From an uncultured Methanobrevibacter sp. (GTDB lineage: Archaea > Methanobacteriota > Methanobacteria > Methanobacteriales > Methanobacteriaceae): 45,947 bases of DNA. Shown here one piece after another: positions 22,548 to 45,947 of this stretch. The number at the start of each line of letters is the position of its first letter. Position 1 is the stretch's first letter. The stretch spans positions 1 through 45,947 of the forward strand of contig NZ_CAMJCX010000009.1 in the NCBI RefSeq assembly GCF_946404245.1, written 5' to 3'. The notes beneath the pieces are model-generated. The model worked only from the letters and a program-made list of their open reading frames with translations. It was not told where the DNA came from and did no database searches. The position numbers and the translations under genes are program-made.

Positions 22548-23912
22548 ATGTCTGATAAAAAACGATTATTTGGAACTTTCGGAGTTAGAAGAACCGCAAA
22601 TGACGTCCTGACTCCAGAGTTCGCATCAAGACTTGCAGCTTGTTATGGTTCACTGATTAAAGGAACCGTTGCTGTTGGTGGAGACCCAAGAACCTCCACA
22701 GTTATGTTAAAGGAAGCTGTTAAAGCTGGACTCTTATCAAGTGGATGTGATGTTGTAGATTTAGGAATCTTGCCTACACCAGGCGTTCAGTACGCAGTGC
22801 GCAAATACTACGACGGAGGAGTCATGATTACCGCATCACACAATCCTCCGAAATATAACGGCCTTAAATTCCTGGATGAATTCGGTATTGGAATTCCGGA
22901 TGAAATGGACCTAGCAATCGAAAAGCTATACTTCGATGAGGAACCTGACAGGGTGCCGTTTTCCGAAATAGGTCAGCTTTACCACAACGACAAAATCATT
23001 GACGAGTATGTTGACGAGGCAATCTCAAAAGTGGATGTCGACGCAATACGTGAAGCAAACCTTAAAGTTGTTGTTGACTGCGGATCCGGTGCAGGATGCT
23101 TTACAGCACCATACCTCATTAGAAAATTAGGCTGTGAAGTCACCACACTAAACGGTCAGCCTGACGGATTTTTCCCAGGCCGTGACCCTGAACCAATTGA
23201 AGAAAATCTGCAGGAACTCATCAGCGTTGTAAAGGAATTGGGTGCAGACATCGGGCTTGCACACGACGGTGACGCTGACAGAACCATCTGCATTGACGAG
23301 AAAGGCAATTTTGTCCTTGGGGACAAGACATTCACCCTTGTTGAAAAACAGATGCTTAAGGAAAACAATGGCGGAACCATTGTAACCACAGTTGCAACAT
23401 CCCAAGCAATTTATGATATTGCAGAAGAATACAATGGTGAAGTAATAGCTACTGCCGTAGGAGATTTGCTTGTTGCACGTAAACTCAAAGAAGAAGACGG
23501 ACTGTTTGGTGGAGAAGAAAACGGAGGACTCATTTTCCCTGATTTCGTTTACGGAAGAGATGCGGTCATGACCGTTGCCAAAATCCTGGAAATCGTTGCA
23601 AAAGAGAAAAAGCCATTGTCCGAGCTTGTAGCTGAACTTCCGGTTTATTATGCTAAAAAAATGAAAATCGAATGTCCTGACGATCAAAAAGAATTCGTGA
23701 TGTCAAGTATTGCTGAAGAAATCAAAAGCACTACTGATTTCGAATTGGACTTAACAGACGGTGTTAAAATCCTTAAGGAAGATGGCTGGGTAATCATCAG
23801 ACCATCCGGAACTGAACCAATTTTCAGATGCTTTGCAGAGTCCGACTCACAGGAAAAAGCTGATGAAATGACCGATTGGGGAATCAGTTTAATCAAAAAA
23901 TACAAAAAATAA
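22548..23912 (+). CDS. Phosphohexomutase (phosphoglucosamine/phosphomannomutase family), copy 1
   Basis: A 454-residue alpha-D-phosphohexomutase. The N-terminus FGTFGVRRTANDVLTPE, the active phosphoserine loop MITASHNPPKYNGLKF, the metal loop LAHDGDADRTICID, the sugar loop GGEENGGLIFPDF and the phosphate-binding RPSGTEPIFRC are all intact. The sugar loop GEENGG differs from the GEPSGT of copy 2 at 29297-30634, so the two may prefer different sugars (glucosamine, glucose or mannose phosphates). The gene is isolated, with a perfect AT-rich hairpin after it. AGGA lies about 12 bases before the ATG. Confidence 0.87.
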   Translation: MSDKKRLFGTFGVRRTANDVLTPEFASRLAACYGSLIKGTVAVGGDPRTSTVMLKEAVKAGLLSSGCDVVDLGILPTPGVQYAVRKYYDGGVMITASHNPPKYNGLKFLDEFGIGIPDEMDLAIEKLYFDEEPDRVPFSEIGQLYHNDKIIDEYVDEAISKVDVDAIREANLKVVVDCGSGAGCFTAPYLIRKLGCEVTTLNGQPDGFFPGRDPEPIEENLQELISVVKELGADIGLAHDGDADRTICIDEKGNFVLGDKTFTLVEKQMLKENNGGTIVTTVATSQAIYDIAEEYNGEVIATAVGDLLVARKLKEEDGLFGGEENGGLIFPDFVYGRDAVMTVAKILEIVAKEKKPLSELVAELPVYYAKKMKIECPDDQKEFVMSSIAEEIKSTTDFELDLTDGVKILKEDGWVIIRPSGTEPIFRCFAESDSQEKADEMTDWGISLIKKYKK

Positions 23913-24086: not shown

Positions 24087-25223
24087 TTAAAAGTTTTCCA
24101 AACACTCTTCTTTTAAGAAAAATGCATCCTCATTATCAGGATTTCTAAGCAACACTCTGTTGAAACTGTCAACAGCCTCTTCAAATTTACCCAATTCCAT
24201 TAAAACAACACCCTTATTCAATAAAAAGTCTATGTTGTTCTTTTCCAATGCAATTGCCTTGTTGAAACATTCCAATGCCTCATCGAATTTTCCCAAATCA
24301 ATATATGCATTGCCCATCCTGTTTATGGCACTTGCATCCATCTCAGAATCATCCAGACAAACTTCAACAGCCTTGTCAAAAGATTGTATGGCCTCTTCAA
24401 GCTGTCCCATATCTGTCAGGAGATTGCCCCGTGCGTTCCATACTTCAGGGTTTTCGCCGTCAATGACAATCAGCTTATCATAAATCCTTAAAGCCTGTTC
24501 ATACCTTCCAAGCATTTCAAGAATAAATCCTCTCCAATAAAGAACAATAGGACTGCTCGGACGGAAATTGTATGCGATAGTGCTTGCCTTATAAGCCTCT
24601 TCAAGTCTTCCTGCATTAAGAAGAGCGATTGCCTTGTTATTTAAAATATACTCGTTATCGGGTTCAAATTCCAAAGCCTTGTCATAGCAGCTTATTGCGT
24701 CATCAAATCTGCCCAGCCTTGAGAGGTTGTCACCCTGCTTGTTAAGGAGATAAACATCGTCCGGGTCAAGTCTTAAAGCGGCATCATAGCACATTGTTGA
24801 TTTATCGAATTTACCGCTGTCAAATAGAATGTCAGCCCTTTTGGTAATCATGGCCTTCTCATCTATCTTGTCGCCTTTCCAATCGTCAATGTTCAATTTT
24901 TCAAAATAGATTATCTGGAACTCGTCTGAGTCATCAATCTGGCCGCCATACATCTTTTTAAATTCCCTCAGCATATCATGAGAGTCCTTAAAACCTTCCT
25001 TTACGGCCAGCTCGTCATTGTCCTTAATCTCTTCAAACGGAATGTTTTCGACAGCAGTTACCAGCGCTTCAAAAATCTTCATCTTTTCTTTGGAAACCAG
25101 ATTCCAGTAGCAGTACAGCCTGTCTCCAACTTTAAGCGGAGTCTTCCAAGCTTTACGTATTGTTCTTGTTTTCTTACCAGTAATCACATCTATATCATTA
25201 CTTGAAAATGACAAAATAGGCAT
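24087..25223 (-). CDS. ASCH-like domain fused to TPR repeats
   Basis: A 378-residue protein. Residues 1-115 look like an ASCH domain (ILSFSSNDIDVITGKKTRTI, then PLKVGDRLYCYWNLVSKEK, KIFEALVTAVENI, LAVKEGFKDSHDMLREF and FQIIYFEKL); such domains bind RNA and resemble PUA. From about 125 to the end there are seven tetratricopeptide repeats, for example GRFDDAISCYDKALEFEPDN and GKFDEALECFNKAIALEKNN. TPRs make protein contacts. The combination suggests an adaptor joining an RNA or modified nucleotide to partner proteins; this is inference. AAGGAGGAG precedes the ATG, and the gene is the last of the five-gene minus cluster. Confidence 0.72.
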   Translation of the reverse strand: MPILSFSSNDIDVITGKKTRTIRKAWKTPLKVGDRLYCYWNLVSKEKMKIFEALVTAVENIPFEEIKDNDELAVKEGFKDSHDMLREFKKMYGGQIDDSDEFQIIYFEKLNIDDWKGDKIDEKAMITKRADILFDSGKFDKSTMCYDAALRLDPDDVYLLNKQGDNLSRLGRFDDAISCYDKALEFEPDNEYILNNKAIALLNAGRLEEAYKASTIAYNFRPSSPIVLYWRGFILEMLGRYEQALRIYDKLIVIDGENPEVWNARGNLLTDMGQLEEAIQSFDKAVEVCLDDSEMDASAINRMGNAYIDLGKFDEALECFNKAIALEKNNIDFLLNKGVVLMELGKFEEAVDSFNRVLLRNPDNEDAFFLKEECLENF

Positions 25224-29271: not shown

Positions 29272-29299
29272 AAGAAGTTTAAGATGAAATATCATCTTA
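29272..29299 (-). terminator. Hairpin and T-run overlapping the stop codon of phosphohexomutase copy 2
   Basis: Arms TAAGATGA and TCATCTTA (29280-29299) are perfect complements around a 4-base loop and include the stop codon. On the minus strand they are followed by AACTTC and a run of eight T. Confidence 0.65.
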
Positions 29300-30634
29300 T
29301 AAATTTTCATTGATTATTTTTACACAGACATCCTTGATTTCTTCAGCTCTCTGAGCGTCACGGGACTCTAAAGTTATTCTGATGTAGTCTTCAGTTCCGG
29401 ACGGTCTTACAAGTACCCAGCTGTCATCTTCGAATGTCAGTCTTACGCCGTCGATTGAGTTGACTTCGCTGATGTCATCGAATGCTGATTTTAAAAGTTC
29501 CTCCATATTTTCCATGACTTTGACTTTTGCCTCTTTAGAGCATGTGATCTTTTCACGGATATTCGGATATGACGGAATTTCAGCCAAGAGATCTGACAAT
29601 TTTCCCTTGTTGGATACAAGTTCTGCCATTCTTAAACCGGACAATATTCCATCAGGACACATGCAGAAGTCAGGGTGTAGCCATGTTCCTGAAGGCTCTC
29701 CTCCGAATGCTGCATCCTTTTCAATGATTACTTCAGCTACGTTAACGTCTCCGACAGGAGTTCTGAATACCTGTCCGTTTACTGACTCGTCCATGCACAG
29801 TCCGGCATCCACGGTTGTTACAACGTCGCCGTCGAACTCTTTTGATATCAATGCAAGAAGTGAGTCGAATGGTGAAATGTTACCTTTTTCATCAACGGTT
29901 ATCATCCTATCTGCATCACCATCGTGTGCAATTCCAAGGTCTGCTCCAACAGCTACAACGGTTTTCATCAGGTTTCCAAGGTTTTCAGCATTAGGTTCAG
30001 GATTTCTTCCAGGGAAAAATCCGTCAGGTTGGGAGTTGAGTGTTGTCACTTCGCATCCTGCTTTTCTAAATACTAAAGGTGATATTTCGCTTCCAGCACC
30101 GGATGCGCAGTCAATGACGACTTTCAAGCCTTCCTTGATATCAACAAGATTTACCAAATCGTCAATGTACTGTCCTTTGATTTGCTCGTTTACACTCAAT
30201 TTACCGATTTTGTCCCAGGATACTGAAATGTATGACTTTTCAGAGTAGATTTTTTCTATTTCTGCTTCCTGAGCTGAAGTGTATGCCATTCCATTCTTGT
30301 TCCATAGCTTTATTCCGTTGTATGGGGACGGATTGTGTGAAGCTGTAAGCATTATTCCAGCGTCAGCATCTAATTTTTCAGTAGCATAACCAACTAATGG
30401 AGTTGGAACCATACCGATTTTAACTACATTGACACCACTTTCCAAAAGTCCTGCACAAATAGCTTGATCAAGCATTTTATTTGTAGTACGAGTGTCATAA
30501 CCCAATACAACAGTACCTTCATTTCCAAGATAATAAGCTAATGATTTACCTACATTCAATGCCAGTTCGCATGTTACTTCAGAGCCTATCAGACCTCTGA
30601 TTCCGGATGTTCCAAAAAGTTTTTTAGCTGCCAT
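29297..30634 (-). CDS. glmM: Phosphoglucosamine mutase-type phosphohexomutase, copy 2
   Basis: A 445-residue enzyme starting MAAKKLFGTSGIRGLIG. It has the phosphoserine loop MLTASHNPSPYNGIKLW, the metal loop IAHDGDADRMITVDE, the sugar loop GGEPSGTWLHPDF and the phosphate-binding RPSGTEDYIRI. The GEPSGT loop is closer to phosphoglucosamine mutase than that of copy 1. The start at 30634 is set by GGTGAT three bases upstream; an open frame continues to 30667 but overlaps apgM. It follows apgM by ten bases and ends in a stop-overlapping terminator. Product GlcN-1-P would feed the GlmU-like enzyme at 27553-28836. Confidence 0.87.
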   Translation of the reverse strand: MAAKKLFGTSGIRGLIGSEVTCELALNVGKSLAYYLGNEGTVVLGYDTRTTNKMLDQAICAGLLESGVNVVKIGMVPTPLVGYATEKLDADAGIMLTASHNPSPYNGIKLWNKNGMAYTSAQEAEIEKIYSEKSYISVSWDKIGKLSVNEQIKGQYIDDLVNLVDIKEGLKVVIDCASGAGSEISPLVFRKAGCEVTTLNSQPDGFFPGRNPEPNAENLGNLMKTVVAVGADLGIAHDGDADRMITVDEKGNISPFDSLLALISKEFDGDVVTTVDAGLCMDESVNGQVFRTPVGDVNVAEVIIEKDAAFGGEPSGTWLHPDFCMCPDGILSGLRMAELVSNKGKLSDLLAEIPSYPNIREKITCSKEAKVKVMENMEELLKSAFDDISEVNSIDGVRLTFEDDSWVLVRPSGTEDYIRITLESRDAQRAEEIKDVCVKIINENL

Positions 30635-30644
30635 GCTATCACCA

Positions 30645-31883
30645 TTATGCCCCGAATTTGTGAGCATAGTTCATTAAATCCATCATGATGTTCATTACGT
30701 CAGCCCCTCTGATTCTGTTAAGTCCTCCTTTAGCGCATGCCCTTTCGGAGAATTCACATACATCATCGGTTCTTACTTCAGGACCTCTGATTAATACAGG
30801 GACAGGGTCTCCTGAATGGTTTTTAACAGAAATTGGAGTTGAATGGTCAGCTGTTAAGTAAATGTAAACGTCTTCAAGTTTTATGAGTTCACTCATTACT
30901 ACTTCATCGACTTTTTCAATGAATTCCTTTTTCTCCTTGGTCTGACCGTCGTGGCCTGCCTCATCTGCTCCGTCAATGTTTATTAAGAAAAAGTCATGGT
31001 CTGAGTTTTTAACCTGATCAACAATAGTGTCACGGATATTTTCAAGGTTGGTGTCGATTCCGCCGGTTACGTCTTCCATTTCGATGATATCCATTCCTGC
31101 GAATCTTCCGATACCCATAATCAATCCGGTTTCTGCAATACATGCTGAGTTGACTTCATATTTTTCATTTAATGATTCGACAACAGGCACTTCTCCCGCA
31201 CCACGTGGAATGACGATGTTTGCAGGATGTTCGCCTTCTTCAATTCTTTTTAAGTTGACAGGATGATCTTTGGTCATTTCATAGGTTTTGACTACCAGTT
31301 TGTTTAGGATATCTGCAGTTTTTGCCGCTTCAGGTGTGTCATCCAAAGGTTTAACTTCCTTAGGCTTGTTTCCTTCCACTTTAGGATCAGCGTCACTTAC
31401 CTTGCCGGAAAGTCCTTCTCCCCTCAACACTAAAACTGCCCTGTGACCGGTTGATTCTTTGAAAATGATTTTGATGTCAGGATAATCTTCCAAAACCATT
31501 GTGTTCAATACGTCCACAATTTCTTTGGTTCCCTCTTTGATTCTTCCTGCACGTCTGTCGGTAACGATTAAATCCTCATCGACAGTTGAGAAATTACATC
31601 TGAATGCAATATCGCCCGGTAAAACTTCCACACCGACACCGTTTGCTTCGAACGGTCCTCTTCCGGTGTAGACCTCATAAGGATCATAGCCTAAAATTGA
31701 CAAGTGTGCTGTGTCACTTCCAGGAATGATGCCTGGAGCGATTGAATCCATAATTCCAGTAATTCCTTCTTCTGCCATCTTGTCCATATTTGGAGTGTGT
31801 GCAGCTTCAAGAGGAGTTTTATTTCCTAGTTCTTTAATAGGACGGTCTCCCATACCATCCATAATTAAAATAAGACCTTTCAT
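30645..31883 (-). CDS. apgM: 2,3-bisphosphoglycerate-independent phosphoglycerate mutase (archaeal ApgM)
   Basis: A 412-residue alkaline-phosphatase-superfamily enzyme of glycolysis and gluconeogenesis. MKGLILIMDGMGDRPIKELG gives the first metal-binding Asp residues, PGSDTAHLSILGYDP holds the catalytic serine region, and later metal ligands appear in INIDGADEAGHDG and YLTADHSTP. The start at 31883 is chosen because AGGTGAT lies four bases upstream; the frame opens three codons earlier. It lies 71 bases after DUF92 and ten bases before phosphohexomutase copy 2, so all three probably share a transcript. Confidence 0.94.
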   Translation of the reverse strand: MKGLILIMDGMGDRPIKELGNKTPLEAAHTPNMDKMAEEGITGIMDSIAPGIIPGSDTAHLSILGYDPYEVYTGRGPFEANGVGVEVLPGDIAFRCNFSTVDEDLIVTDRRAGRIKEGTKEIVDVLNTMVLEDYPDIKIIFKESTGHRAVLVLRGEGLSGKVSDADPKVEGNKPKEVKPLDDTPEAAKTADILNKLVVKTYEMTKDHPVNLKRIEEGEHPANIVIPRGAGEVPVVESLNEKYEVNSACIAETGLIMGIGRFAGMDIIEMEDVTGGIDTNLENIRDTIVDQVKNSDHDFFLINIDGADEAGHDGQTKEKKEFIEKVDEVVMSELIKLEDVYIYLTADHSTPISVKNHSGDPVPVLIRGPEVRTDDVCEFSERACAKGGLNRIRGADVMNIMMDLMNYAHKFGA

Positions 31884-31954
31884 AAATATCACCTAAAATA
31901 TAATAATATGATTTTTATCTTTAATAGTTAAAATAATTATTTAAAAAAAATAGT

Positions 31955-32970: not shown

Positions 32971-32982
32971 TTATTTTTTTCT
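32944..32982 (-). terminator. Adhesin terminator overlapping its stop codon
   Basis: AGAAAA and TTTTCT pair (32964-32982) around a loop containing the stop codon. On the minus strand a TATTTTTTTC tract and a run of eight T follow. Confidence 0.5.
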
Positions 32983-35900
32983 AAGTCTTCTTAATTGTGT
33001 TGATCCGATGACCATCAATATCATCAGAAGCACCATTATCGGATTACCGGTTGAGTGCTGAGCCAAATCAATGCCGCCGTTCTGGCCGCCATGTTCAGGT
33101 TCAGGAACAGGATTTGGATTATCCGGATATACCACATCAATGTCAGTTATGGTATCGTTTGCATCGTATTTCTTATCACCTGAGTAAACTGCAGTAACGT
33201 CATGGTCACCTGGGGTCAATCCAGGGATAACGAATACAGCTTTTCCATCTTTTACTTCAGCGGTGTATTTCTTGCCGTCAACAGTAATTGTCACGGTACC
33301 GGTTGCATCGCTAGGCAGATTTACAACAACGGTTGCATCTTCACCTTGCTCTATTTTATCTCCGGTAGCTGAAATTGGAGCGCTTACTTTTGTTACTGTG
33401 AATTTTGTGGTTGTTGTGCTTGGCAAGTACTTGTCGTCACCTTCATAGGTCACTTTAGCAGTGTATTTTCCGCTTGGAAGTTCAGGGATTATGACTTTGG
33501 CCTTGCCGTTTACAATATCAGCATAGTATCCGACGCCGTTAATGTCAACAAGTACACGTCCGGTAGCATCCTTAGGAACAGTCACTGTGATTACTTCATC
33601 TTTACCGACTTTAATGTCTTTTGAAGTAGCGCTTGCAGTTGAAGGAACTTTGGATACTGTGAAGTTTCCGGTTGTGAAGTTTCCGACGTAGTTTTTATCA
33701 CCAGCGTATTTTACTGCAACAGTCTTATCGCCAGCAGTCAAGTCAGGTACTTCAAATACTGCTTTTCCATCTTTGATTTCAGCAGTGTATTCTTTACCGT
33801 TGATTTCAATAGTTACAGTACCAGTTGCATCTTCAGGAACGTTTACAGTGATTTTTGCTGTATCTCCAACATTAATGTCTTCCACTTCAACGCTTATTGG
33901 AGTGTCGATTTTCGGAATTGTTACAGTTGAGTTTTTATCCTGACTACCATATTTATCATCACCGGAGTAGATGACTTCAATGTCATGTTTTCCAGGAGTT
34001 TCATTGGTCAGATTGACAATAGCTGTACCGTTTACAACAGGAACTGTGTAAGTGTTGTTTCCAACTTTGATTGTGACATTTCCTGTAGCATCATCAGGCA
34101 AGTCAACTTTCACTGTTCCGTCACCGTTATCAGTGATTTCCATATCTGTGGAAGTTTTTGAAACTGTGAATTTTGTTGAGTTTGTTGAAGGCAAGTACTT
34201 GTCATCACCGTTGTATCTGACTTCAACAGTGTATTCACCTTTAGGCAGATCATTGATTGTCAATACTGCTTTGCCGTCACTTACAGCAACTGTGAACTTG
34301 TTGCCGTCTGCATCAATAGCACCTAATGTGTCAAGGTCAACTGTGAATTCTTCACCGTCAATAATTACGGTAAGTGTACCGGTAGCGTCTTCAGGAAGTT
34401 CAAATGTGATTTTTTCAGTGTCACCGACAGCAATGTCTCTTGCGGTTGGAATGACATATGATGGAAGTTTATCCACATTGAATGAAGTTGTGTTTGAACT
34501 TGGCAAGTATTTGTCATCACCGAGATATGTTACATTCACGTCATATTTTCCGCTAGGAACACGAGGAATTTCAACTGATCCAGTGCCGTTGGTTACGTTT
34601 ACATAGTATCCTACACCGTTAATGTCAACAAGTACTTGTCCGGTAGCATCTTCAGGAACAGTTACTTTTACAGTCACATTTTCACCGACTTTGGAGTCTT
34701 CGACTGTTGCACTTACAGTTGAAGGAACTTTGGATACAGTGAATTTAGCTGTTGTGTGGTTTCCTGTGTAGTTGTCATCACCGACATAGTCAACAGCCAC
34801 AGTCTTGTTACCTGCGGTTAGGCCAGGAACTTCAAATACTGCTTTTCCATCTTTGATTTCAGCGGTGTATTCTTTACCGTCGATTTCAATAGTCACATTG
34901 CCTGTTGCATCATCAGGAACGTTTACAGTTATTACTGAAGTGTCTCCTACTTTTGAATCTTTTACATCAACTGATATTGGAGTGTCGAGTTTTGGAATTG
35001 TTACTGTTGCATCAGTGGTTTGACCTTCGTGAGTATCGTCACCGGAATAGATTACTTCAATGTCATGTTTTCCAGGAGTTTCATTGGACAGGTCAACAAC
35101 TGCAGTGCCGTTTTCAACAGGAACTGTGTAGGTGTTGTTTCCAACTTTGATTGTGACATTTCCTGTAGCATTATCGCCAACGACTACAACTACAGTGCCG
35201 TTTCCTTGGTCGATCACTTTCATGTCATCAATATCTTTCTTGGAGACTTCGAATTCAGTGGAATTTGAACTTGATTCGTATTTGTCATCACCATTGTATT
35301 TAGCGTCAACAGTGTAGTTTCCAGCTTTGAGGCCAGGAATCACAAGTGTTCCTTTACCGTCAGCAACGGAAACATTGTAATCTTTGCCGTCAACTGTTAC
35401 AGTTACGTTACCAGTAGCATCTTTAGGCACTTTTACAGTGATTACTGCTTTGTCTCCTACAGTGATGTCGTCGACTTCAACGGAAACTGTTGAAGGAACT
35501 TTGTCCACTTTGAAGTTGCCAGTAGCATTGGCAGGAGTGTATTTGTCATCACCAAGGTATTTTGCAGTTACTGTGTAGTTTCCACTTGTTAAATCATCAA
35601 TCTCAAGTGTTCCTTTACCGTCAGTAATGTTTACATAGTAACCTTTACCGCCAACGTCTACAAGAACAGGCCTTGTTACATCGCTTGGAGCAGTTACTTC
35701 AATGACCACTTTATCTCCAACAGTGGAGTTAGTAGCTTTTACGGTTATTTCAGGAGCCACTTTGGATACTGTGAAGTTTCCGGTTGTGTGGTTTCCTGTG
35801 TAGTTGTTGTCACCGACATACTCAACAGCCACGGTCTTGTTACCCGCAGTCAGGTTTTCAATATTGAATGTAGCTTTTCCATCTTTGATTTCAGCGGTGT

Positions 35901-38900
35901 ATTTTTTGCCGTCGATTTCAATGGTTACATTACCAGTTGCATCTTCAGGAACTTCCACAGTTATTGTAGTGGTATCTCCAACATTAATGTTCTCGGTTGT
36001 AACTTTAATTGGAGTTGGATGTTTTGGAATTGTTACAGTTGAGTTGGTAGTTGCTGCAGTGTGGTTTTCATCACCTGAATAAATTACCTCAATGTCGTGA
36101 GTTCCAGGAGTTGTATTAGTCAAGGTAATTACAGCAGTACCGTTAACAACAGGACCAGTGTAGGTCTCATTTCCAACTTTAATAGTCACATTACCGGTAG
36201 CGTTATCAGGAACAGTAACAACAACAGTACGGTTACCTTGATCAATAACCTTAATTGAAGATTCAGTAGTGTTTACTTTGGATACTTCAAAGGTTGTTGA
36301 GTTGCTTGCAGGTTCGTATTTTTTACATCCGTCAAATGCCACATCGACTGTGTAGTTATCCGGTTTAAGGTCTGATACAACCAGTGTTCCTTTGCCGCCG
36401 GATACAGGAACTGTGTAATTTTTGCCGTCTACAGTCACGGTTACGTTTCCGCATAAGTCTTCAGGAGTTTCAATATTTATTACAGCATTTTCGCCAACGG
36501 TAATGTCATCAACAGTAACATTGATGCTTGCAGGCACTTTGGATACTTCCACTGTAGTGCCGTTGGTGGAGTTGAAGTATTGGTCATCACCTAAATATGT
36601 TGCATCGACTGTATGGTTTCCGCTAGCAAGTCCCTTGATTGCAGCGGTTCCTGTACCGTCAGTTACTTTAATTGCATAAGTCTGATTGTCAATTGTCACA
36701 TGTACCCATCCGGTTGCGTTTTCAGGCACATTGACTTTAACTGTTACATCTTCACCCACATTTGCAGGTTCAACGTCAACAGTTACGAATGATTCGCGTT
36801 TATCTACAGTGAAGTTGCCGGTAGTGAAGTTGCCTACGTAATTGTCGTCACCTGAGTATTTAACAGCAACTGTCTTATTGCCGTAAGTTAAGTTTTCAAC
36901 TTCAAATCTTGCAACGCCATCTGTAATCTTATCTGTAGTGTACTCTTTACCGTTGATTTCAATAGTCACATTACCTGTTGCGTTTTCAGGCAATTTAACT
37001 TCAACAACAGCTTTATCACCTACTTTAATGTCTGAAACAGATACTTCAATCGGAGTATCGTATTTCGGAATTGTCACATTAGCCAGTTTAGTGGCATTTG
37101 TATAGTTTCCGTCACCGGAGTAAACTACTTCAATTTCATGAGTTCCAGGAGTTGCATTTGTTAATGTAATTACAGCAGTGCCGTTCACGACAGGAGCAGT
37201 GTAGTTTTCATCCCCAATCTTAATTGTCACATTGCCTGTAGCGTCATCCGGAACAGTGACAACAACAGTGCCGTTGCCTTGATCAATGACTTTAATGTCT
37301 GTATCATTAGCTTTGGATACTTCAAATTCAGCAGAGCTTGTAACAGGTTTGTATTTTCCATCACCGTTATAAGTTGCATTAATTGTGTAATTGCCCGCAG
37401 GTAATTTTGGAATAGTTAATGTGCCGGTTCCACCAGATACCGGTACAGTATGAGTTTCATTATTAACGACGACTGTAATGTTTCCAATTGCATCCTCAGG
37501 AACAGTGAATGTGATTGTTTCACTTTCACCACATGTGATATTTTGAGGAGTGATTTCTAAGGTTGAGTTATTCTTAGTTACATTGAATTTGTCTGAAGTA
37601 GAGTTGCGTAAGTATGTGTCATCACCCAAGTAAGTAGCGACCACATCATATTCTCCTGCAGGTAATGTATCAATCTCTAAGATTGCTTTACCATCACTTA
37701 CATTAGCATAGTAAGGTTGACCATTAATGTCAATTAACACTTGACCGGTTGCATTTGCAGGAACTTCTACTGTAATAGTTTGTTTTCCTCCAACAGTGCT
37801 GTTTGAAATAGTCATATTTATTGGAGCATCAAGTTTTGTAACTTCAAATGTTGCAGATGTCCAGTTGCCGTTTAGGTTATTATCTCCTTCATATATAACA
37901 ACAATAGTATGATTTCCTGCTGTGGTTGCATCAATTGTAAAGTTAGCAGTACCATTTGTGACAGGCACAGTATTGTTTACACCATCGACAATGACAATTA
38001 CCTTTCCTGTAGCATTAGTATTGTTGACAGTGATATTGATTACTTGGCTTTCACCTATTTTCATTGACGGTGCAGCTTCAACACTTACAGTTGTATTTAC
38101 TTTATATACTTCGAAGTCCACGGTTGCAGTTGCCTTATTGTAGTTTTCATTACCATTGAAAATTGCTACAACAGGATAATGTCCTGCATCCAATCCTTCA
38201 ACATTAACTGTAGCATTTCCATTATAGTCAGGCACATTCCATCTGGATGCTTTTAAGGTAACTTTGCCATTTTCTAGTGAAATTTCCTCAACAGTTCTGT
38301 TATCTACTGTAACTGTTACATTACCTTCGGCATTCACATGAACAATTATATGTTCAACATCTCCATAGAATATGTCTTCAACCTCAAAGGTTATTATTGG
38401 ATCTGCCTTATAAACAGTGAAGTTTGATTTAGCATTGCTACGTGTGTAGTTAGCATTTCCATTGTATGTCACATTAACAGTGTAGTTATTTGCATTTAAG
38501 TAAGGAACATCAACACTTACTAGGCCGTTAACTAAAGGTTGTTCTATAAATTCATAGCCTCCGACTTCAATTGTAACATTACCCTCAGCATTTACATAAA
38601 CGGTAATAGTTTCAACCTCACCGTAAGTAATGTTTTGAACAACAACATTGATGTCTGGAGCAATTTGACTTACTTTGAATGATCCATTAGCGGTTGCAGA
38701 TTCATATTTATCGTTAGCAGGGAAGTATAATGTAATATTATAGTCTCCAGCTGCAAGGTCATTCAATGTTAAGTTACCTTTACCGTTTTTGATGAATGTT
38801 GTGTAATTTCTGCCGTTTACTTCAACTTCCACTAAGCTGGTAATATCATCTTTAGTCTCAATAGTAATCAATTCAGCATTACCAAAGTCAATATCGGTTC

Positions 38901-41900
38901 CGTTGATTGTGAATTCAGGTTGATATTTTGATATGGTAACGCTTGACTTGGTTGTATTGCCATAATATTTATCGTTTTCAACATACCTTGCAGTCACATT
39001 ATGTTTGCCTGCTTTAAGGCCGGTTATGTTGAATTGTGCAACACCGTTTGTGATGTTTGCATAGTAATGATTATCTTCAATGTCAAGTAATATTTCTCCT
39101 GTTGCATTATTTCCTACAGTTACATTGATTTGTACAACATCACCCATGTTTTCTACATCAATACTGAGAGGAACTGTGAGTTTATCTACTCTGAATGATG
39201 AAGTTGCATTGGATTCATTATAGTTTTTATTACCATGATAGAATGCATCTACGGTGTAGTTGTCTGCACGCAAGTTAGGAACTGTAATTGTAGGGTTGTC
39301 AGTTGTTGTCTTATATTCAACGCCATTTACAAATACGCTGATATTTCCAGTAGCAGCATTAGGACTTACTTCCAATTCAATTGTTACATTATCACCAACA
39401 GTGACGTTTCTGATTTCCTTGATTGTAATTGTGGAAGCTGCTTTGTATACTACAAAGCTGTTGGATCCTTCATAAGTGTATGTCTTAGCTCCATCAACTT
39501 CAACGTAAACTGCACTTACATTATATTTGCCTGCATCTAATTTCAAATTCCAATTAGCCAAACTGATGTTACGGTTACGTAGGTATCTATCAATTTTTAC
39601 ACTTTCATTTCTGATTACTTCACCGCTGGCATTAGTGATAATAATTGTTAAGGTGTTGCCCGTATGGTTTCCATCTATTAGCACAAGCACAGTTTCATCA
39701 GATCCGTAAGTAATATTCTGTGGTGAAACATCTAATTCTTTGATTGTGTCATAAACCTCAAATGAAGTGTAGTTTTCATTTCCGAGGTATTTTCTGTTTT
39801 CAAGATATATTGCTGTTACAGAATAGTTACCGATTTTAGGAGATGCAATGTGTAATTGACCTTTTCCGCCATTTACATAAACATTTTCATAAGTTGTGTT
39901 AATATCTCTATTCTTATCCCATACGATTACAGTTACATTGCCTGTTATATCCTCAGGAGCAGTGATATTTATGTATACATCACTACCATTAGCAATGATT
40001 CCGTTATCGTTTACAGTTACGTTGATGGATGAAGGAAGTTTGTCGACTTTAAAGCTTGTAGTATTGTTGCTTGGCAAGAATTGGTCATCACCAACATAAG
40101 TTACAGTCACATTGTAAAGACCAGCTTCAGAAACTTTAACAACAACCCTGTCATCACCATTAGTTAAATTAATTGTGTAGTTTGTGCCATTCACATTTAC
40201 AACAACATATCCGATAGCATTTTCAGGAACAGTCACATTAATGATTACTTCACCATCTACAACACCATCAGTAGCAGTCACATTAATGAATGAATCACGT
40301 TTGTTCACAGTGAAGTTTGCAGTAGTTGAGTTGAATCTGTATTTGTCATCACCAGGATATGTAGCAACAACAGTCTTATTACCATAAGTGATTTGAGGTA
40401 TGTAGAATGTAGCATTACCATTAACAGTTGCGTTAGTGAATTTCATACCGTTAATCTCAATAGTAACATTTTCAGTTACATCACTAGGAACAGTCACAAC
40501 CACTTTAACAGTATCGTTAACATAAATACTGGTATCATTAACCACAGTAATTTTCATTGGAGTGTCAACTTTAGATACAACAAATCTGGTTTCAACAGTC
40601 TTGTTTGCATATTTGTCATCACCGAAGTAAGCAGTAACATTGTAAACACCCTCTTCAAGTGTTGAAACATTATTCAATACAGCTTTGCCATCAGCAATAG
40701 TAACAGTGTAATTAGTTCCATTCAATTCAATGATGACTTTACCAATAGCATCACTAGGAACATTTACAGTAATATTAGTATTATCACCAACCTCAATGTC
40801 TGAAGCTGTGATGTTAATTAAGTAATCGTCAGTCTGATTAGTAGTGAATTTATAAATGTCATAATCTTTGGTGAAGTTCTTATCACCAGCATAACTAGCA
40901 TTAACAGTGTAATTACCATAATCTAAAACATCAGTAGTAACCACAGCAATACCGTTAACAGGTTTCACACTGTAATCCTTATCAACATGCACAGTTATGT
41001 TTTCAGTAGTTCTAGGATCAATTTCAACAATAATTGTTGCATTCTCACCAGCAGTTGAAATGACTCTAATAATCTTAATCTCAGGTGAAATTTGTCTGAC
41101 TTCAAATGTTTTATTAGTTTTATTTCCATTATACTTATCATCACCAGAGTAATTAGCATAAACAGTGTAGTTACCAGCAGCAAGATCTTCTACAATCCAA
41201 TTTACAGTACCGTTCACAACAGGCAAAGTAATCTCATGAGTATCATTAATCTTAATAGTAATATATCCTGTAGCATCATCTTTAACTGTTACAGTAATGT
41301 TGGCTTTTTGACCATAGTCAATGCTTTCAACAGCAATAGAGATTGTAGTATTGTCTTTTGGAATACCAAATGTAGTGCTGTTTTCACTTGGCAAGTACTG
41401 ATCATCACCAATATAAGTCACATTAACTGTGTGAGTAGTATTGCCTAATCCTTTAATAGAAACTGAACCATTACCATTAGTGGTATTGACAGTGTAATTA
41501 GTTCCATCAACACTAACAATGACATATCCTGTTGCATTAGCAGGAATGGTCACATTAATAACAACATCATCACCAACAAGACCTGCATCAACAGTAACAT
41601 TCACTTGTGATTGACGTTTGTTTACAGTGAAGTTAGCAGTAGTTGAGTTGAATCTGTACTTGTCATCACCAGGATATGTTGCAACAACAGTCTTATTGCC
41701 GAAAGTAATTTCAGGTATGTAGAATGTCGCATTACCATTGACTGTGCTGTTAGTGAACTGCATACCGTTAATCTCAATGGTCACATTCTTAGTCACATCA
41801 CTAGGAACTGTCACAATCACTTTAACAGTATCATTAACAAGAATACTGGTCTCATTAATTACAGTGATTGCGATTGGAGTGTCAACTTTACTTACAGCAA

Positions 41901-44900
41901 ATCTAGTTTCAACAGTCTTATTCACATATTTGTCACTACCAAAGTAAGCTGTCACATTGTAGACTCCCTCTTTAAGGGTTGAAACATTATCTAAAACAGC
42001 TTTGCCTCCACTAATAGTAGCAGTGTAGTTAGTACCATTTAATTCAATAATTACTTTACCAGTAGCGTCTGCTGGAACATTAACAGTGATGTTAGTGTTG
42101 TCTCTAACATTAATGTCGCTAGCAGTAATGTTAATCAAGTAATCGTCAGTCTGATTAGTAATGAAGTTATAAATATCATAGCCTTTGGTGAAGTTCTTAT
42201 CACCAGCATAGCTTGCATTTATTGTGTAATCGTTATAGTCTAAAACATCAGTAGTTACCACAGCAATGCCGTTGACCGGTTTTGCAGTGTAATTCTTATT
42301 ATTGACATTCACAGTTATGTTTTCAGATACTCTAGGATCGATTTCAACGATTATGGTTGCATTTTTATCAGCAGTTGAAATCACTTCGATAATCTTGATT
42401 TCAGGTGAAATCTGACTTACTTCAAAGCCTTTGCTGGTTTCATTCTTATTATATTTACCATCACCAGAGTAATTAGCATAAACTGTGTAATTATCAGCAG
42501 GTAAATTGTCTACAATCCAATTGACAGTACCGTTAATGACCGGCAAGGTGACATTTCTAATGTTGTCTATTCTGATTGTAATGTAGCCGGTAGCGTCATT
42601 CTCAACAGTGACTGTGATATTGGCGCTTTCGCCATAAGTAATATTTTGAACTGCAATAGCGATTGTAGTGTTTGCTTTTGGAATGCCGAATGTTGTGCTG
42701 TTTTCACTTGGCAAGTATTGGTCATCACCAATATAAGTCACATTTACAGTATGAGTAGTGTTGCCTAAACCTTTAATGGTAATTGAACCGTTACCATTTG
42801 TGGTATTAACAGTGTAGTTGGTTCCATCAACATTGACAATCACATATCCAACAGCATTGGATGGAATAGTCACATTAATTACAGTATCATCACCGACAAG
42901 GCCTGCATCAACAGTAACATTCACTTGTGATTTACGTTTGTTAACAGTGAAGTTAGCAGTAGTTGAGTTGAATCTGTACTTGTCATCACCAGGATATGTA
43001 GCAACAACAGTCTTATTGCCGTAAGTGATTTGAGGTATGTAAAATGTAGCATTACCGTTAACAGTGCTGTTGGTGAACTGCATACCGTTAATTTCAATGG
43101 TTACATTTTTAGTAACGTCCTTAGGTACGGTCACAATCACTTTAACAGTGTCGTTAACATAGATGCTGGTTTCATTGACTACAGTGATATTTATTGAAGG
43201 ATAGGTTTTATTCACAGTGAACAGTGTAGTGACGTTATAGTGATTAAAGTCTGTATCATTTACTTGAGCTGTAACTGTGTAGATTCCTTCTTTAAGTCCT
43301 GTGATGTTGAATGTAGCCTTATTATTAGTGAATGAATTGTTTCTGTATTCTTGTCCATCTACCCAAATGACCACATCATCAACATTATCTGGGACTTCAA
43401 CAGTGATTATCTCATCTTCACCAACAGTGATATTCATTGCAGTTACGTTGAATCCGTAATTAAAGACTTTTGAAGGAGTGAATGTCTGTTCCACTCTAGC
43501 ACTGGTGAAGTTTTCATTTCCACCATATTCGACAATAATTGTGTAAGGTTTGATTTCATTAAGAACTTGGGTTTTGAATTCATCATCAACGGAAACGTTA
43601 GCATATGGCACTCCATCGACAGTGACATTTACAACTTTTCCATGTATTTCATCGTTGATTTTGATTTGTACGGTAGCGCTTTCATGGACAGTTCCGCTGA
43701 CTATAAATTCTAAGCCAGGATCTGCCTTTTTAACTTTGAATTTGGCAGATTCTGTATCATTAATATTGTAATCGTCATTTCCATTATATGTTGCATTAAC
43801 AGTGTAGTTGCCTGCAGCCAGACCTTCAACGACCCAAGTGACTTTTCCGCCTTCAATCGGCAGGGTAATGTTTCTTCCGGTTGTATCATTGAGTTTGAGT
43901 GTAATGTTGCCTGTGACTCCTTCAGGAACTGTTACCACAATGGTTGTGGCATTTCCGTAAGTTACGTTGTCGGCCACAATTGATACGGTAGCGTTAATCT
44001 TAGCTACAGAGAATGTAGTGTCGTTTTCAGCTACAGTGTAGTTATCAAGATCATCTCCATAGTATTTGATGTGTACGCTGTAGTTTCCAACAGCCAAATC
44101 CTTAACAGTGACTTCAGCAACGCCGTCTGTAAAGTCATATACAGATATAGGATTATCAGTGAAGTTTCCGCTTAAGACAACATGTCCTGTTGCGTTCTTA
44201 GGAATGTTGATTGTGATTTTTCCATCTTGGTCAACAGTAATGTTTAAGGCAGTTACGTTTACTTTAGGAACTCTTTGAGTTACATCAAATTCAGCCTTTA
44301 ATCTGCTGCCGGTCAAGTTTCTATCTCCATCATAGAATACCCAAGCGACTTTGTGTCCGACAGTCAAGTTGGAAGTGTTGAATCTTGCAACGCCGTCTCT
44401 GATTTCTGCAGTGTATTCAACACCATTAATGTCAATAGTTACGTTACCAGTTGCATTAGTCATTACATTACCAGCAGCGTCTTTAATTGTAATATTTATA
44501 TATTCTGTATCCCATACCGGGACGTCATGCACATCAACATCTAAAACTGTACCGATTTGCAATACATTAACGCCAGAAGTTACTGTAGCGTTGGTGTAGT
44601 TCTCATTTCCACTGTAATTTGCAATAATTACGTAATTTCCAACAGCCAAACCGCCGACTGTCCAATTGACCTTACCGTCAACAATTGGCAAGGTAATATT
44701 CTTATCAGTTCCATTAATCTTAATTGTTATATTTCCTGTTACACCATCAGGAACTGTCACAGTAATATTTGCTTTTTCACCATAGTATATGTCTTCAACA
44801 GTAATATTAAGCACTGGTTTTGCTTTATATACTGTGAATTTGGTGCTGTTTGTAGTTACTGTGTAGTTTTCATTACCATTATATGTAACCTCAACTGTGT

Positions 44901-45947
44901 AGTTGCCTGCAGGCAATACGACACCCGGCAAGATTGCTTTGCCGTCAGTGAGGTTTTGTGTGTCAAATACATAATAAGTATCATTAATTTTGACAGTTAC
45001 ATTGCCGGTAGCATCTTCAGGAAGTGTTACGACAATTAATGTTTCATTTCCATAAGTTACATTGTCAACATCAATAATGATTTCAGGTGCAGCTTGGATT
45101 ACATAGAATACAGTGTAATTAGTTGCATTATGATATTTATTATCGCCCTCATAGAATAGGGTTACATTATACTTGCCGACAGGCAATTGTGGAAGTTCAA
45201 TTGATACAGTACCATTCTTAATTCTGCCGAAATATTCTTTTCCATCAACAATCGCTGAAACGACACCAGTAGTGTCATTTAAAAGGGTGATATTAATTAT
45301 TTCATTTTGAATGATAGTAATATTTGTAACATTTGCTGAAAGTGTAGTGTTATATTTATGTACTCTGAAATCAGCTTCACCCATAGCAGGTTCTAAAAGT
45401 TTACTACCTTCATAGAATGCGATTACTTTCTTAAGTCCTGCAGTCAAATTAGTTATGTTAAATGTAGCAGTTGCATTTTTAGCACCCATAGTTAATGTTA
45501 AATTATAAGCTTTATTATCAAGATATAGAGTTACATTACCGGGTACATTATATTTTTCATCCGGCGGAACGATTGTGACATTGATATAAATTGTATCATT
45601 CACCATAATGTCATACGCATTTACATCAACGAAAACTGCAGCAAAGTCTTTTTGAGGCAAACTATAATTGGTTGTATTGACTGAACTGTTATAGTTATGG
45701 TCATCATGATATGTTGTCTTTACAGTGTAATTTTTAGGAAGCAAATCATGAACCACTGTATAGCCAACACCGTCAACAATGATAACATCTACAGATCTAA
45801 AAATAACTGTTGGATCGCTTTCAATATAAAACTCAACGGTTGCTGTTCCGTTAGCATCACCATAGAATTTGTCATCCCACTCATCGAAAATTGTAACATT
45901 CATGGAAATATCATACCCAATATCATCGAAAGTGACTGTTGAATTGG
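32971..45947 (-). CDS. Giant adhesin-like surface protein with Ig-like repeats, 5' end outside the window
   Basis: The frame is open from the stop at 32971 to the right edge (at least 4,324 codons). The ATG at 45903 is not the start, because upstream codons continue the repeat pattern (NSTVTFDDIGYDIS). The protein is a string of about 50 Ig-like modules of 80-95 residues. Each has a pattern such as NITVTVP-DATGNVTIKI, DGKAVF, AGNYTV and YSGDDKY followed by a F-V-K linker. It is rich in Asn and Thr, with very many N-x-T/S glycosylation sites and almost no cysteine. The C-terminus has a Pro/Glu/Gly stalk (PNPVPEPEHGGQNGG), then STGNPI, a hydrophobic helix and RRLRKK, a membrane anchor. The signal peptide must lie outside. 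Such proteins in Methanobrevibacter are thought to mediate contact with other cells. Confidence 0.93.
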   Translation of the reverse strand, partial: NSTVTFDDIGYDISMNVTIFDEWDDKFYGDANGTATVEFYIESDPTVIFRSVDVIIVDGVGYTVVHDLLPKNYTVKTTYHDDHNYNSSVNTTNYSLPQKDFAAVFVDVNAYDIMVNDTIYINVTIVPPDEKYNVPGNVTLYLDNKAYNLTLTMGAKNATATFNITNLTAGLKKVIAFYEGSKLLEPAMGEADFRVHKYNTTLSANVTNITIIQNEIINITLLNDTTGVVSAIVDGKEYFGRIKNGTVSIELPQLPVGKYNVTLFYEGDNKYHNATNYTVFYVIQAAPEIIIDVDNVTYGNETLIVVTLPEDATGNVTVKINDTYYVFDTQNLTDGKAILPGVVLPAGNYTVEVTYNGNENYTVTTNSTKFTVYKAKPVLNITVEDIYYGEKANITVTVPDGVTGNITIKINGTDKNITLPIVDGKVNWTVGGLAVGNYVIIANYSGNENYTNATVTSGVNVLQIGTVLDVDVHDVPVWDTEYINITIKDAAGNVMTNATGNVTIDINGVEYTAEIRDGVARFNTSNLTVGHKVAWVFYDGDRNLTGSRLKAEFDVTQRVPKVNVTALNITVDQDGKITINIPKNATGHVVLSGNFTDNPISVYDFTDGVAEVTVKDLAVGNYSVHIKYYGDDLDNYTVAENDTTFSVAKINATVSIVADNVTYGNATTIVVTVPEGVTGNITLKLNDTTGRNITLPIEGGKVTWVVEGLAAGNYTVNATYNGNDDYNINDTESAKFKVKKADPGLEFIVSGTVHESATVQIKINDEIHGKVVNVTVDGVPYANVSVDDEFKTQVLNEIKPYTIIVEYGGNENFTSARVEQTFTPSKVFNYGFNVTAMNITVGEDEIITVEVPDNVDDVVIWVDGQEYRNNSFTNNKATFNITGLKEGIYTVTAQVNDTDFNHYNVTTLFTVNKTYPSINITVVNETSIYVNDTVKVIVTVPKDVTKNVTIEINGMQFTNSTVNGNATFYIPQITYGNKTVVATYPGDDKYRFNSTTANFTVNKRKSQVNVTVDAGLVGDDTVINVTIPSNAVGYVIVNVDGTNYTVNTTNGNGSITIKGLGNTTHTVNVTYIGDDQYLPSENSTTFGIPKANTTIAIAVQNITYGESANITVTVENDATGYITIRIDNIRNVTLPVINGTVNWIVDNLPADNYTVYANYSGDGKYNKNETSKGFEVSQISPEIKIIEVISTADKNATIIVEIDPRVSENITVNVNNKNYTAKPVNGIAVVTTDVLDYNDYTINASYAGDKNFTKGYDIYNFITNQTDDYLINITASDINVRDNTNITVNVPADATGKVIIELNGTNYTATISGGKAVLDNVSTLKEGVYNVTAYFGSDKYVNKTVETRFAVSKVDTPIAITVINETSILVNDTVKVIVTVPSDVTKNVTIEINGMQFTNSTVNGNATFYIPEITFGNKTVVATYPGDDKYRFNSTTANFTVNKRQSQVNVTVDAGLVGDDVVINVTIPANATGYVIVSVDGTNYTVNTTNGNGSVSIKGLGNTTHTVNVTYIGDDQYLPSENSTTFGIPKDNTTISIAVESIDYGQKANITVTVKDDATGYITIKINDTHEITLPVVNGTVNWIVEDLAAGNYTVYANYSGDDKYNGNKTNKTFEVRQISPEIKIIRVISTAGENATIIVEIDPRTTENITVHVDKDYSVKPVNGIAVVTTDVLDYGNYTVNASYAGDKNFTKDYDIYKFTTNQTDDYLINITASDIEVGDNTNITVNVPSDAIGKVIIELNGTNYTVTIADGKAVLNNVSTLEEGVYNVTAYFGDDKYANKTVETRFVVSKVDTPMKITVVNDTSIYVNDTVKVVVTVPSDVTENVTIEINGMKFTNATVNGNATFYIPQITYGNKTVVATYPGDDKYRFNSTTANFTVNKRDSFINVTATDGVVDGEVIINVTVPENAIGYVVVNVNGTNYTINLTNGDDRVVVKVSEAGLYNVTVTYVGDDQFLPSNNTTSFKVDKLPSSINVTVNDNGIIANGSDVYINITAPEDITGNVTVIVWDKNRDINTTYENVYVNGGKGQLHIASPKIGNYSVTAIYLENRKYLGNENYTSFEVYDTIKELDVSPQNITYGSDETVLVLIDGNHTGNTLTIIITNASGEVIRNESVKIDRYLRNRNISLANWNLKLDAGKYNVSAVYVEVDGAKTYTYEGSNSFVVYKAASTITIKEIRNVTVGDNVTIELEVSPNAATGNISVFVNGVEYKTTTDNPTITVPNLRADNYTVDAFYHGNKNYNESNATSSFRVDKLTVPLSIDVENMGDVVQINVTVGNNATGEILLDIEDNHYYANITNGVAQFNITGLKAGKHNVTARYVENDKYYGNTTKSSVTISKYQPEFTINGTDIDFGNAELITIETKDDITSLVEVEVNGRNYTTFIKNGKGNLTLNDLAAGDYNITLYFPANDKYESATANGSFKVSQIAPDINVVVQNITYGEVETITVYVNAEGNVTIEVGGYEFIEQPLVNGLVSVDVPYLNANNYTVNVTYNGNANYTRSNAKSNFTVYKADPIITFEVEDIFYGDVEHIIVHVNAEGNVTVTVDNRTVEEISLENGKVTLKASRWNVPDYNGNATVNVEGLDAGHYPVVAIFNGNENYNKATATVDFEVYKVNTTVSVEAAPSMKIGESQVINITVNNTNATGKVIVIVDGVNNTVPVTNGTANFTIDATTAGNHTIVVIYEGDNNLNGNWTSATFEVTKLDAPINMTISNSTVGGKQTITVEVPANATGQVLIDINGQPYYANVSDGKAILEIDTLPAGEYDVVATYLGDDTYLRNSTSDKFNVTKNNSTLEITPQNITCGESETITFTVPEDAIGNITVVVNNETHTVPVSGGTGTLTIPKLPAGNYTINATYNGDGKYKPVTSSAEFEVSKANDTDIKVIDQGNGTVVVTVPDDATGNVTIKIGDENYTAPVVNGTAVITLTNATPGTHEIEVVYSGDGNYTNATKLANVTIPKYDTPIEVSVSDIKVGDKAVVEVKLPENATGNVTIEINGKEYTTDKITDGVARFEVENLTYGNKTVAVKYSGDDNYVGNFTTGNFTVDKRESFVTVDVEPANVGEDVTVKVNVPENATGWVHVTIDNQTYAIKVTDGTGTAAIKGLASGNHTVDATYLGDDQYFNSTNGTTVEVSKVPASINVTVDDITVGENAVINIETPEDLCGNVTVTVDGKNYTVPVSGGKGTLVVSDLKPDNYTVDVAFDGCKKYEPASNSTTFEVSKVNTTESSIKVIDQGNRTVVVTVPDNATGNVTIKVGNETYTGPVVNGTAVITLTNTTPGTHDIEVIYSGDENHTAATTNSTVTIPKHPTPIKVTTENINVGDTTTITVEVPEDATGNVTIEIDGKKYTAEIKDGKATFNIENLTAGNKTVAVEYVGDNNYTGNHTTGNFTVSKVAPEITVKATNSTVGDKVVIEVTAPSDVTRPVLVDVGGKGYYVNITDGKGTLEIDDLTSGNYTVTAKYLGDDKYTPANATGNFKVDKVPSTVSVEVDDITVGDKAVITVKVPKDATGNVTVTVDGKDYNVSVADGKGTLVIPGLKAGNYTVDAKYNGDDKYESSSNSTEFEVSKKDIDDMKVIDQGNGTVVVVVGDNATGNVTIKVGNNTYTVPVENGTAVVDLSNETPGKHDIEVIYSGDDTHEGQTTDATVTIPKLDTPISVDVKDSKVGDTSVITVNVPDDATGNVTIEIDGKEYTAEIKDGKAVFEVPGLTAGNKTVAVDYVGDDNYTGNHTTAKFTVSKVPSTVSATVEDSKVGENVTVKVTVPEDATGQVLVDINGVGYYVNVTNGTGSVEIPRVPSGKYDVNVTYLGDDKYLPSSNTTSFNVDKLPSYVIPTARDIAVGDTEKITFELPEDATGTLTVIIDGEEFTVDLDTLGAIDADGNKFTVAVSDGKAVLTINDLPKGEYTVEVRYNGDDKYLPSTNSTKFTVSKTSTDMEITDNGDGTVKVDLPDDATGNVTIKVGNNTYTVPVVNGTAIVNLTNETPGKHDIEVIYSGDDKYGSQDKNSTVTIPKIDTPISVEVEDINVGDTAKITVNVPEDATGTVTIEINGKEYTAEIKDGKAVFEVPDLTAGDKTVAVKYAGDKNYVGNFTTGNFTVSKVPSTASATSKDIKVGKDEVITVTVPKDATGRVLVDINGVGYYADIVNGKAKVIIPELPSGKYTAKVTYEGDDKYLPSTTTTKFTVTKVSAPISATGDKIEQGEDATVVVNLPSDATGTVTITVDGKKYTAEVKDGKAVFVIPGLTPGDHDVTAVYSGDKKYDANDTITDIDVVYPDNPNPVPEPEHGGQNGGIDLAQHSTGNPIMVLLMILMVIGSTQLRRLRKK
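33130..37300 (-). repeat. Higher-order repeat B of the adhesin: four-module unit, about four copies
   Basis: Equivalent bases of the module beginning IDQGNGTVVV occur at 37277, 36236, 35204 and 34124, giving unit lengths of 1,041, 1,032 and 1,080 bases. Each unit holds four different Ig-like modules in fixed order: IDQGNGT type, TPISVDV type, VGY-YVN type and DDITVGD type. The longer third unit contains an insertion of about 16 residues around DTLGAIDADGNKF. The copies differ at many third positions, so they are older than repeat A. Confidence 0.75.
40300..43205 (-). repeat. Higher-order repeat A of the adhesin: five-module unit, two full copies and part of a third
   Basis: The module with VNETSIYVNDTVKV recurs exactly 1,320 and then 1,317 bases apart (equivalent bases 43141, 41821 and 40504). 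Five modules follow in fixed order before the unit restarts; the third copy covers about its first module closely. In the 120 bases at 42901-43020 and 41581-41700 I count four differences, so the copies are about 97 percent identical there. This points to recent duplication. Confidence 0.82.

Follow-up and report, generated by a model that had tools for sequence, protein, structure and literature searches.

Periscope Proteins are bacterial proteins, among them SasG, Rib and Sgo_0707, in which the repeated unit is a single domain (or the G5/E unit in SasG) and in which neighbouring SHIRT domains are 82-100% identical (Whelan et al. 2021, PMC8201768; review PMC9704523). In archaea, Gupta and Seedorf 2024 (PMC11532034) have described the adhesin-like proteins (ALPs) of Methanobrevibacter smithii and Methanosphaera stadtmanae. 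In their account, ALP subgroup IA is composed of a beta-helix, archaeal Big domains and a membrane anchor, and the largest M. smithii ALP described has 4,691 aa and 18 Ig modules.

In this study we focus on a giant adhesin-like gene of Methanobrevibacter. The window, that is the whole stretch of 45,947 nucleotides analysed, is the entire contig C9 of an assembly of 1.83 Mb, 105 contigs and 87% completeness. A contig scan of named genomes found a single locus, which belongs to a goat-jejunum Methanobrevibacter sp.; we judge the genus from this relative and from gene content. The surface proteins that methanogens of the rumen and gut display are thought to determine which hydrogen-producing partners are held, and have been considered as targets of anti-methane vaccines. 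We judge it likely that the window encodes the stalk part, made of Ig domains, of a giant adhesin-like protein of archaea, with a head at the far end, about 49 Ig modules and a C-terminal anchor, and that this stalk has been lengthened and shortened over evolution by block recombination.

The stalk gene and its missing 5' end

The Pfam family Big_3_5 (PF16640) matches the adhesin translation in 40 stretches with 1234.9 bits, and an iterated profile resolves 48 Ig-like modules of about 87 residues each (Table 1). The C-terminal hydrophobic segment and the RRLRKK that follows it are a probable membrane anchor. The 5' end of the ORF is absent because the contig stops inside the gene. In what follows G000 is the window's own genome, and the other G numbers are relatives, with one genome per species. 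The positional orthologue in G028, a complete genome in a single contig, has 8,264 aa: after a signal peptide come some 3,100 residues of repeats that by eye look like a beta-helix, then 55 Ig modules and a similar C terminus; apgM adjoins the adhesin gene likewise in G028, G057, G002 and G006. Since module 1 of the window adhesin matches position 2 in the relatives, little beyond the head is probably missing at the 5' end: a signal peptide, a beta-helix head and about one Ig module. A search of G000 for the missing head gave weak beta-helix matches only, on other contigs.

Contigs end inside this gene in the window (45945) as well as in G057, G036, G018, G016, G014, G017, G050, G005 and G001, so the length of the gene is systematically under-reported in drafts. 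In the single contig of G028 (G028:C1:285001-324178), two giant adhesin genes, of at least 4,624 aa and of 8,264 aa, lie in tandem and have module families in common. Along the window adhesin there are 298 Asn-X-Ser/Thr sites against 76 expected from shuffles (maximum 98), an excess of about four-fold, and the stalk may therefore be heavily glycosylated. Elsewhere in the window, one protein (24087-25223) unusually combines an ASCH domain with many TPR repeats behind it, and two phosphoglucomutase/phosphomannomutase paralogues (22548-23912 and 29297-30667) lie within about 8 kb.

Table 1. Features of the adhesin locus, in window coordinates.
Feature	Position	Strand	Basis or remark
Giant Ig-stalk adhesin-like ORF	32971..45945	-	4,324 aa as present; ORF scan, 5' end open
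Single-copy stalk modules 1-7 (relatives' positions 2-8)	43993..45939	-	77-94% identity to species that share 79% in core genes
Block copy 1, C-D-E-A-B, modules 8-12; C, D and E old and diverged	42670..43992	-	Module tree, family profiles
Block copy 2, modules 13-17	41350..42669	-	Module tree, family profiles
Block copy 3, modules 18-22; B diverged	40033..41349	-	Module tree, family profiles
Tract reported first, modules 11-21: A-B-C-D-E, A-B-C-D-E, A	40294..43200	-	Diagonals, per-module identities
56-nt exact repeat, first place, module A11	42944..42999	-	Gene offset 2946
56-nt exact repeat, second place, module A16	41624..41679	-	Gene offset 4266
Four-module block p-q-r-s, about four copies, modules 33-47	33382..37314	-	Diagonals of 1032, 1041 and 1080 nt; lag-4 test; families p, q, r, s
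Membrane-proximal module 48, family z	33127..33381	-	Silent-site divergence from G028 and G057 core-like
C-terminal hydrophobic segment, then RRLRKK	32974..33048	-	Read by eye from translation
apgM (phosphoglycerate mutase), synteny marker 3' of adhesin	30645..31892	-	Pfam

Ordered blocks of modules in the stalk

A sequence-only reading of this DNA had proposed a five-module super-repeat at 40300-43205, with units differing by one codon, two full copies followed by the start of a third, and patches of about 97 percent identity. The super-repeat is real: the strongest diagonals of the DNA self-comparison lie at 1317, 1320 and 2637 nt. The high-identity tract runs from 43200 down to 40294, from module 11 to module 21, with units of 1320 and 1317 nt that correspond to modules 11-15 and 16-20, followed by module 21. 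In 60-nt windows identity reaches 97-98% over about 90 nt, in module A only. The title of that reading, which spoke of nearly identical copies, was too strong, as the two full copies share on average 82.1% of their bases (73-87% for single modules), with a dS of 0.74 and a dN/dS of 0.13. Within the five-module blocks dN/dS is 0.09-0.16, and the longest exact repeat inside the adhesin gene of the window is 56 nt. To judge from these substitution figures, the full block copies of the window are old and have been kept by purifying selection.

The module tree and the family profiles give C-D-E-A-B as the true register, in three copies covering modules 8-22 (43992-40033), and show that older, diverged copies extend the repeat beyond the tract reported first. 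The tree, built from modules of five genomes and with variable clade support (about 0.66-1.0 at the levels used), contains the clades C (8, 13, 18), D (9, 14, 19), E (10, 15, 20), A (11, 16, 21) and B (12, 17, 22); clades C, D, E and A each hold the same ordered positions in several species. Compared with shuffles of module order, lag-5 periodicity in modules 1-25 has a z of 7.5. Moreover, a C-terminal super-repeat of four modules, p-q-r-s, was absent from the earlier reading; lag-4 periodicity in modules 26-48 has a z of 7.0 in the same comparison. By family profiles the whole stalk of the window reads 2345678-CDEAB-CDEAB-CDEAB-s....56(q)rs-pqrs-pqrs-pqrs-pqr-z. In relatives the p-q-r-s block is reduced to a two-module p-q array, with up to about ten copies in G036.

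This ordered module grammar recurs in other Methanobrevibacter species. In 30 arrays from genomes outside profile training, 296 of 322 labelled neighbour pairs obey the module order, compared with a mean of 48.6 and a maximum of 75 in 1,000 shuffles; the training modules came from G000, G028, G006, G038 and G057, so the labels on these five are in part circular. Among the 427 modules of 39 further arrays from the genus, the same profiles called none as C, D, E or A with confidence. Copies of C-D-E-A(-B) number one in G038 and G001, three in G000, G028 and G006, and four in G050, these counts being minimum values for contigs that end inside the gene, and many of the genomes being drafts in which collapsed or chimaeric joins may occur.

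At the structural level, AlphaFold2 predicts the A-B pair as an all-beta, two-domain Ig-like model (mean pLDDT 93.4), from an alignment of 22 in-register module pairs of the window. Foldseek matches to this model include the SiiE BIg domains and titin Z1Z2, at 14-16% identity; a sequence search of solved structures gave weak matches only.

Differences of block number and probable exchange between species

The giant adhesins of G050 (G050:C4:83546-102914) and G044 (G044:C45:113930-95884) are 91-92% identical, head included. Their head and stalk align at 91.9% identity up to a point beyond which the alignment resumes, at 91.2%, shifted by exactly 1,323 nt. Modules 7-11 of G044 have two counterparts in G050, modules 13-17 and modules 18-22, and the flanking blocks correspond one to one. 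The two G050 blocks are 94% identical; stretches of 446 and 233 nt match exactly, and next to them lie others at about 71-87%. This pattern is as expected from duplication followed by patchy homogenisation; the one-block difference would be either a gain in G050 or a loss in G044. The C-terminal blocks of G028 contain an exact repeat of 308 nt, and modules 44 and 48 are identical; the G050 blocks and these C-terminal blocks look recent, through either homogenisation or duplication.

We propose that homologous recombination between multi-module blocks would build the stalk and alter its length over evolution. The blocks exchanged would be chiefly the five-module C-D-E-A-B, together with the four- or two-module p-q(-r-s), and unequal exchange of matching modules (A with A, for example) would lead to whole blocks being gained or lost in frame. 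Recombination between matching modules one block apart would account for the A-BCDE-A-BCDE-A pattern, for steps that are exact and in frame, and for identity that varies in patches, from which we infer that homologous recombination is the agent of block change. Furthermore, segments or whole genes would be swapped between species.

Alternatively, the repeat could be static and ancient, duplicated long ago and diverged under purifying selection, the block numbers then being a relic and the length no longer varying. The dS and dN/dS between the full copies, the short length of the longest exact repeat and a non-significant silent-run test all fit this explanation. It is, however, at odds with two 92%-identical adhesins that differ by exactly one block, with the exact tracts of 308-446 nt held by relatives, and with the age of the copies within the genome, whose same-amino-acid codon identity (0.68) makes them younger than the core divergence from G028 or G038 (0.55). 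We consider a static repeat unlikely as a general account, though with a real claim to attention.

Length change by block recombination is well supported over evolution by the comparison between species. The sequence-only reading had suggested that the protein could change in steps of 440 residues, with possible effects on reach and on antigenic variation; the stepwise change is supported at the evolutionary scale, as G050 and G044 differ by one 1,323-nt block and counts vary from 1 to 4 across the genus, but is not supported for this strain at present, in which the copies have a dS of 0.74 and at most 56 identical nt in a row. Tests for gene conversion between the window's copies were weak (silent-run p = 0.10, nucleotide-run p = 0.01). 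Because the copies are old, no exact repeat exceeds 56 nt and there is no strong conversion signal, current instability in this genome is not indicated. If one Ig domain is taken to be about 4 nm long, each five-module block would change the reach of the stalk by roughly 20 nm.

In the core genes that flank the adhesin, G000 is 79-80% identical to G028, G038, G006 or G057 (longest aligned stretch), and over 11 core genes the same-amino-acid codon identity between G000 and those relatives is 0.55-0.57, no species exceeding 0.61. By the same measure, modules 1-6 reach 0.81-0.98 against G038 or G006 and modules 12-20 reach 0.66-0.87 against the best G028 module, while the C-terminal module 48 is core-like (0.43-0.56); codon bias is controlled only through this comparison of modules within the adhesin gene. 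Silent sites thus agree between species much more closely in the stalk than in core genes, which indicates that stalk segments have been exchanged between species. Between G050 and G044, core genes are 84% identical and the adhesins 92%, an apparent transfer or replacement of the whole gene.

Such resemblances, like the block numbers, could also arise from collapsed or chimaeric assembly of co-occurring strains in this draft of 105 contigs. The contig ends inside the gene, as do contigs of several relatives, and modules 1-6, near the contig end, are those that most resemble other species, so that a chimaeric origin of the first modules is possible. The complete, single-contig G028, however, shares the module families, the three C-D-E-A-B blocks and the cross-species excess at silent sites. 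G000, G038 and G044 carry core genes on the same contig as the stalk, which disfavours wrong binning, and collapse of the window's copies is unlikely because no exact repeat is longer than 56 nt. As an explanation of the whole, an assembly artefact is thus highly improbable. Finally, that the copies are alike through selection on the protein (convergence or constraint) rather than through recent shared ancestry fits the low dN/dS within blocks (0.09-0.16), but it has scarcely any likelihood, given that silent sites are alike too (same-amino-acid codon identity is 0.68, as compared with 0.55 between species in core genes) and that the offsets equal whole block lengths along 1.3 kb.

Neighbouring modules of this adhesin family were compared in a sample picked for its similarity. 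Of 936 adjacent pairs, one is at least 75% identical in DNA, while at each of lags 2 to 6 the same sample has 20-40 such pairs. In arrays from complete genomes, mostly other adhesins, the proportion is 32/573, with identities up to 99% (Fisher p about 4e-13 between the two samples). A genus-wide rule that neighbours are never alike, suggested by the first sample, was rejected on the second; unlike neighbours are a trait of this adhesin family or of its sampling. As in classic Periscope arrays, neighbours in other adhesins of G028 (G028:C1:895-932 kb and 2080-2110 kb) are up to 99% identical. A possible reason for unlike neighbours is that similar ones could misfold together, the avoidance of which PMC8201768 mentions for multidomain proteins. 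A broader proposal, which we put forward as speculative and rather unlikely, is that block-wise recombination tunes stalk length with a fixed series of dissimilar Ig modules as its unit, so that length can change while neighbours stay unlike and avoid co-misfolding, and that the blocks circulate between species.

Comparison with known systems

Among the papers searched, none joins super-repeat, Ig-like domains and adhesin. In the literature examined we did not find described an ordered multi-module unit spread across a genus, with a copy number that varies between species and with exchange between them. If stalks are altered block by block and the genes pass from one species to another, counts of genes from short-read drafts would be unreliable, as would targets taken to be conserved. 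The locus could moreover serve as a test bed for whether neighbouring repeat domains must differ.

We class the protein with the ALPs of gut methanogens (PMC11532034). Like ALP subgroup IA, it has tandem Big domains, together with a probable beta-helix head (by eye in the orthologue) and a probable membrane anchor (by eye here), within a large gut-methanogen repertoire; unlike the ALPs of that paper, it has its probable anchor at the C terminus and at least 48 Ig modules. Ordered multi-module blocks, differences in block number and exchange between species were not found for ALPs in the passages of PMC11532034 examined.

Like the giant adhesin SiiE of Salmonella (2yn3, 2yn5), which is one of the top structural hits for the A-B model, the protein is a long chain of Ig-like domains, but sequence identity is about 15%, and secretion and anchoring differ. 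As in the super-repeats of titin (e.g. PMC10665226), Ig-type domains form an ordered repeat of higher order, and the module pair distantly resembles titin Z1Z2; titin, a eukaryotic intracellular muscle protein, is an analogy for which no common descent is claimed.

The likeness to Periscope Proteins is in the number of repeated stalk domains, which differs among relatives, in homologous recombination as the proposed cause, and in an anchored surface rod, here predicted from sequence. The differences in number seen here are between species, with one genome for each. High DNA identity between repeats is a Periscope trait; the blocks of the window share 82%, those of G050 up to 94%, and single modules of G028 reach 100%, with neighbours unlike. 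Whereas Periscope units are single domains, the unit here is five, four or two different modules, and neighbours are almost never alike. The idea of a surface rod of variable length would thereby extend to archaea and to units of several domains.
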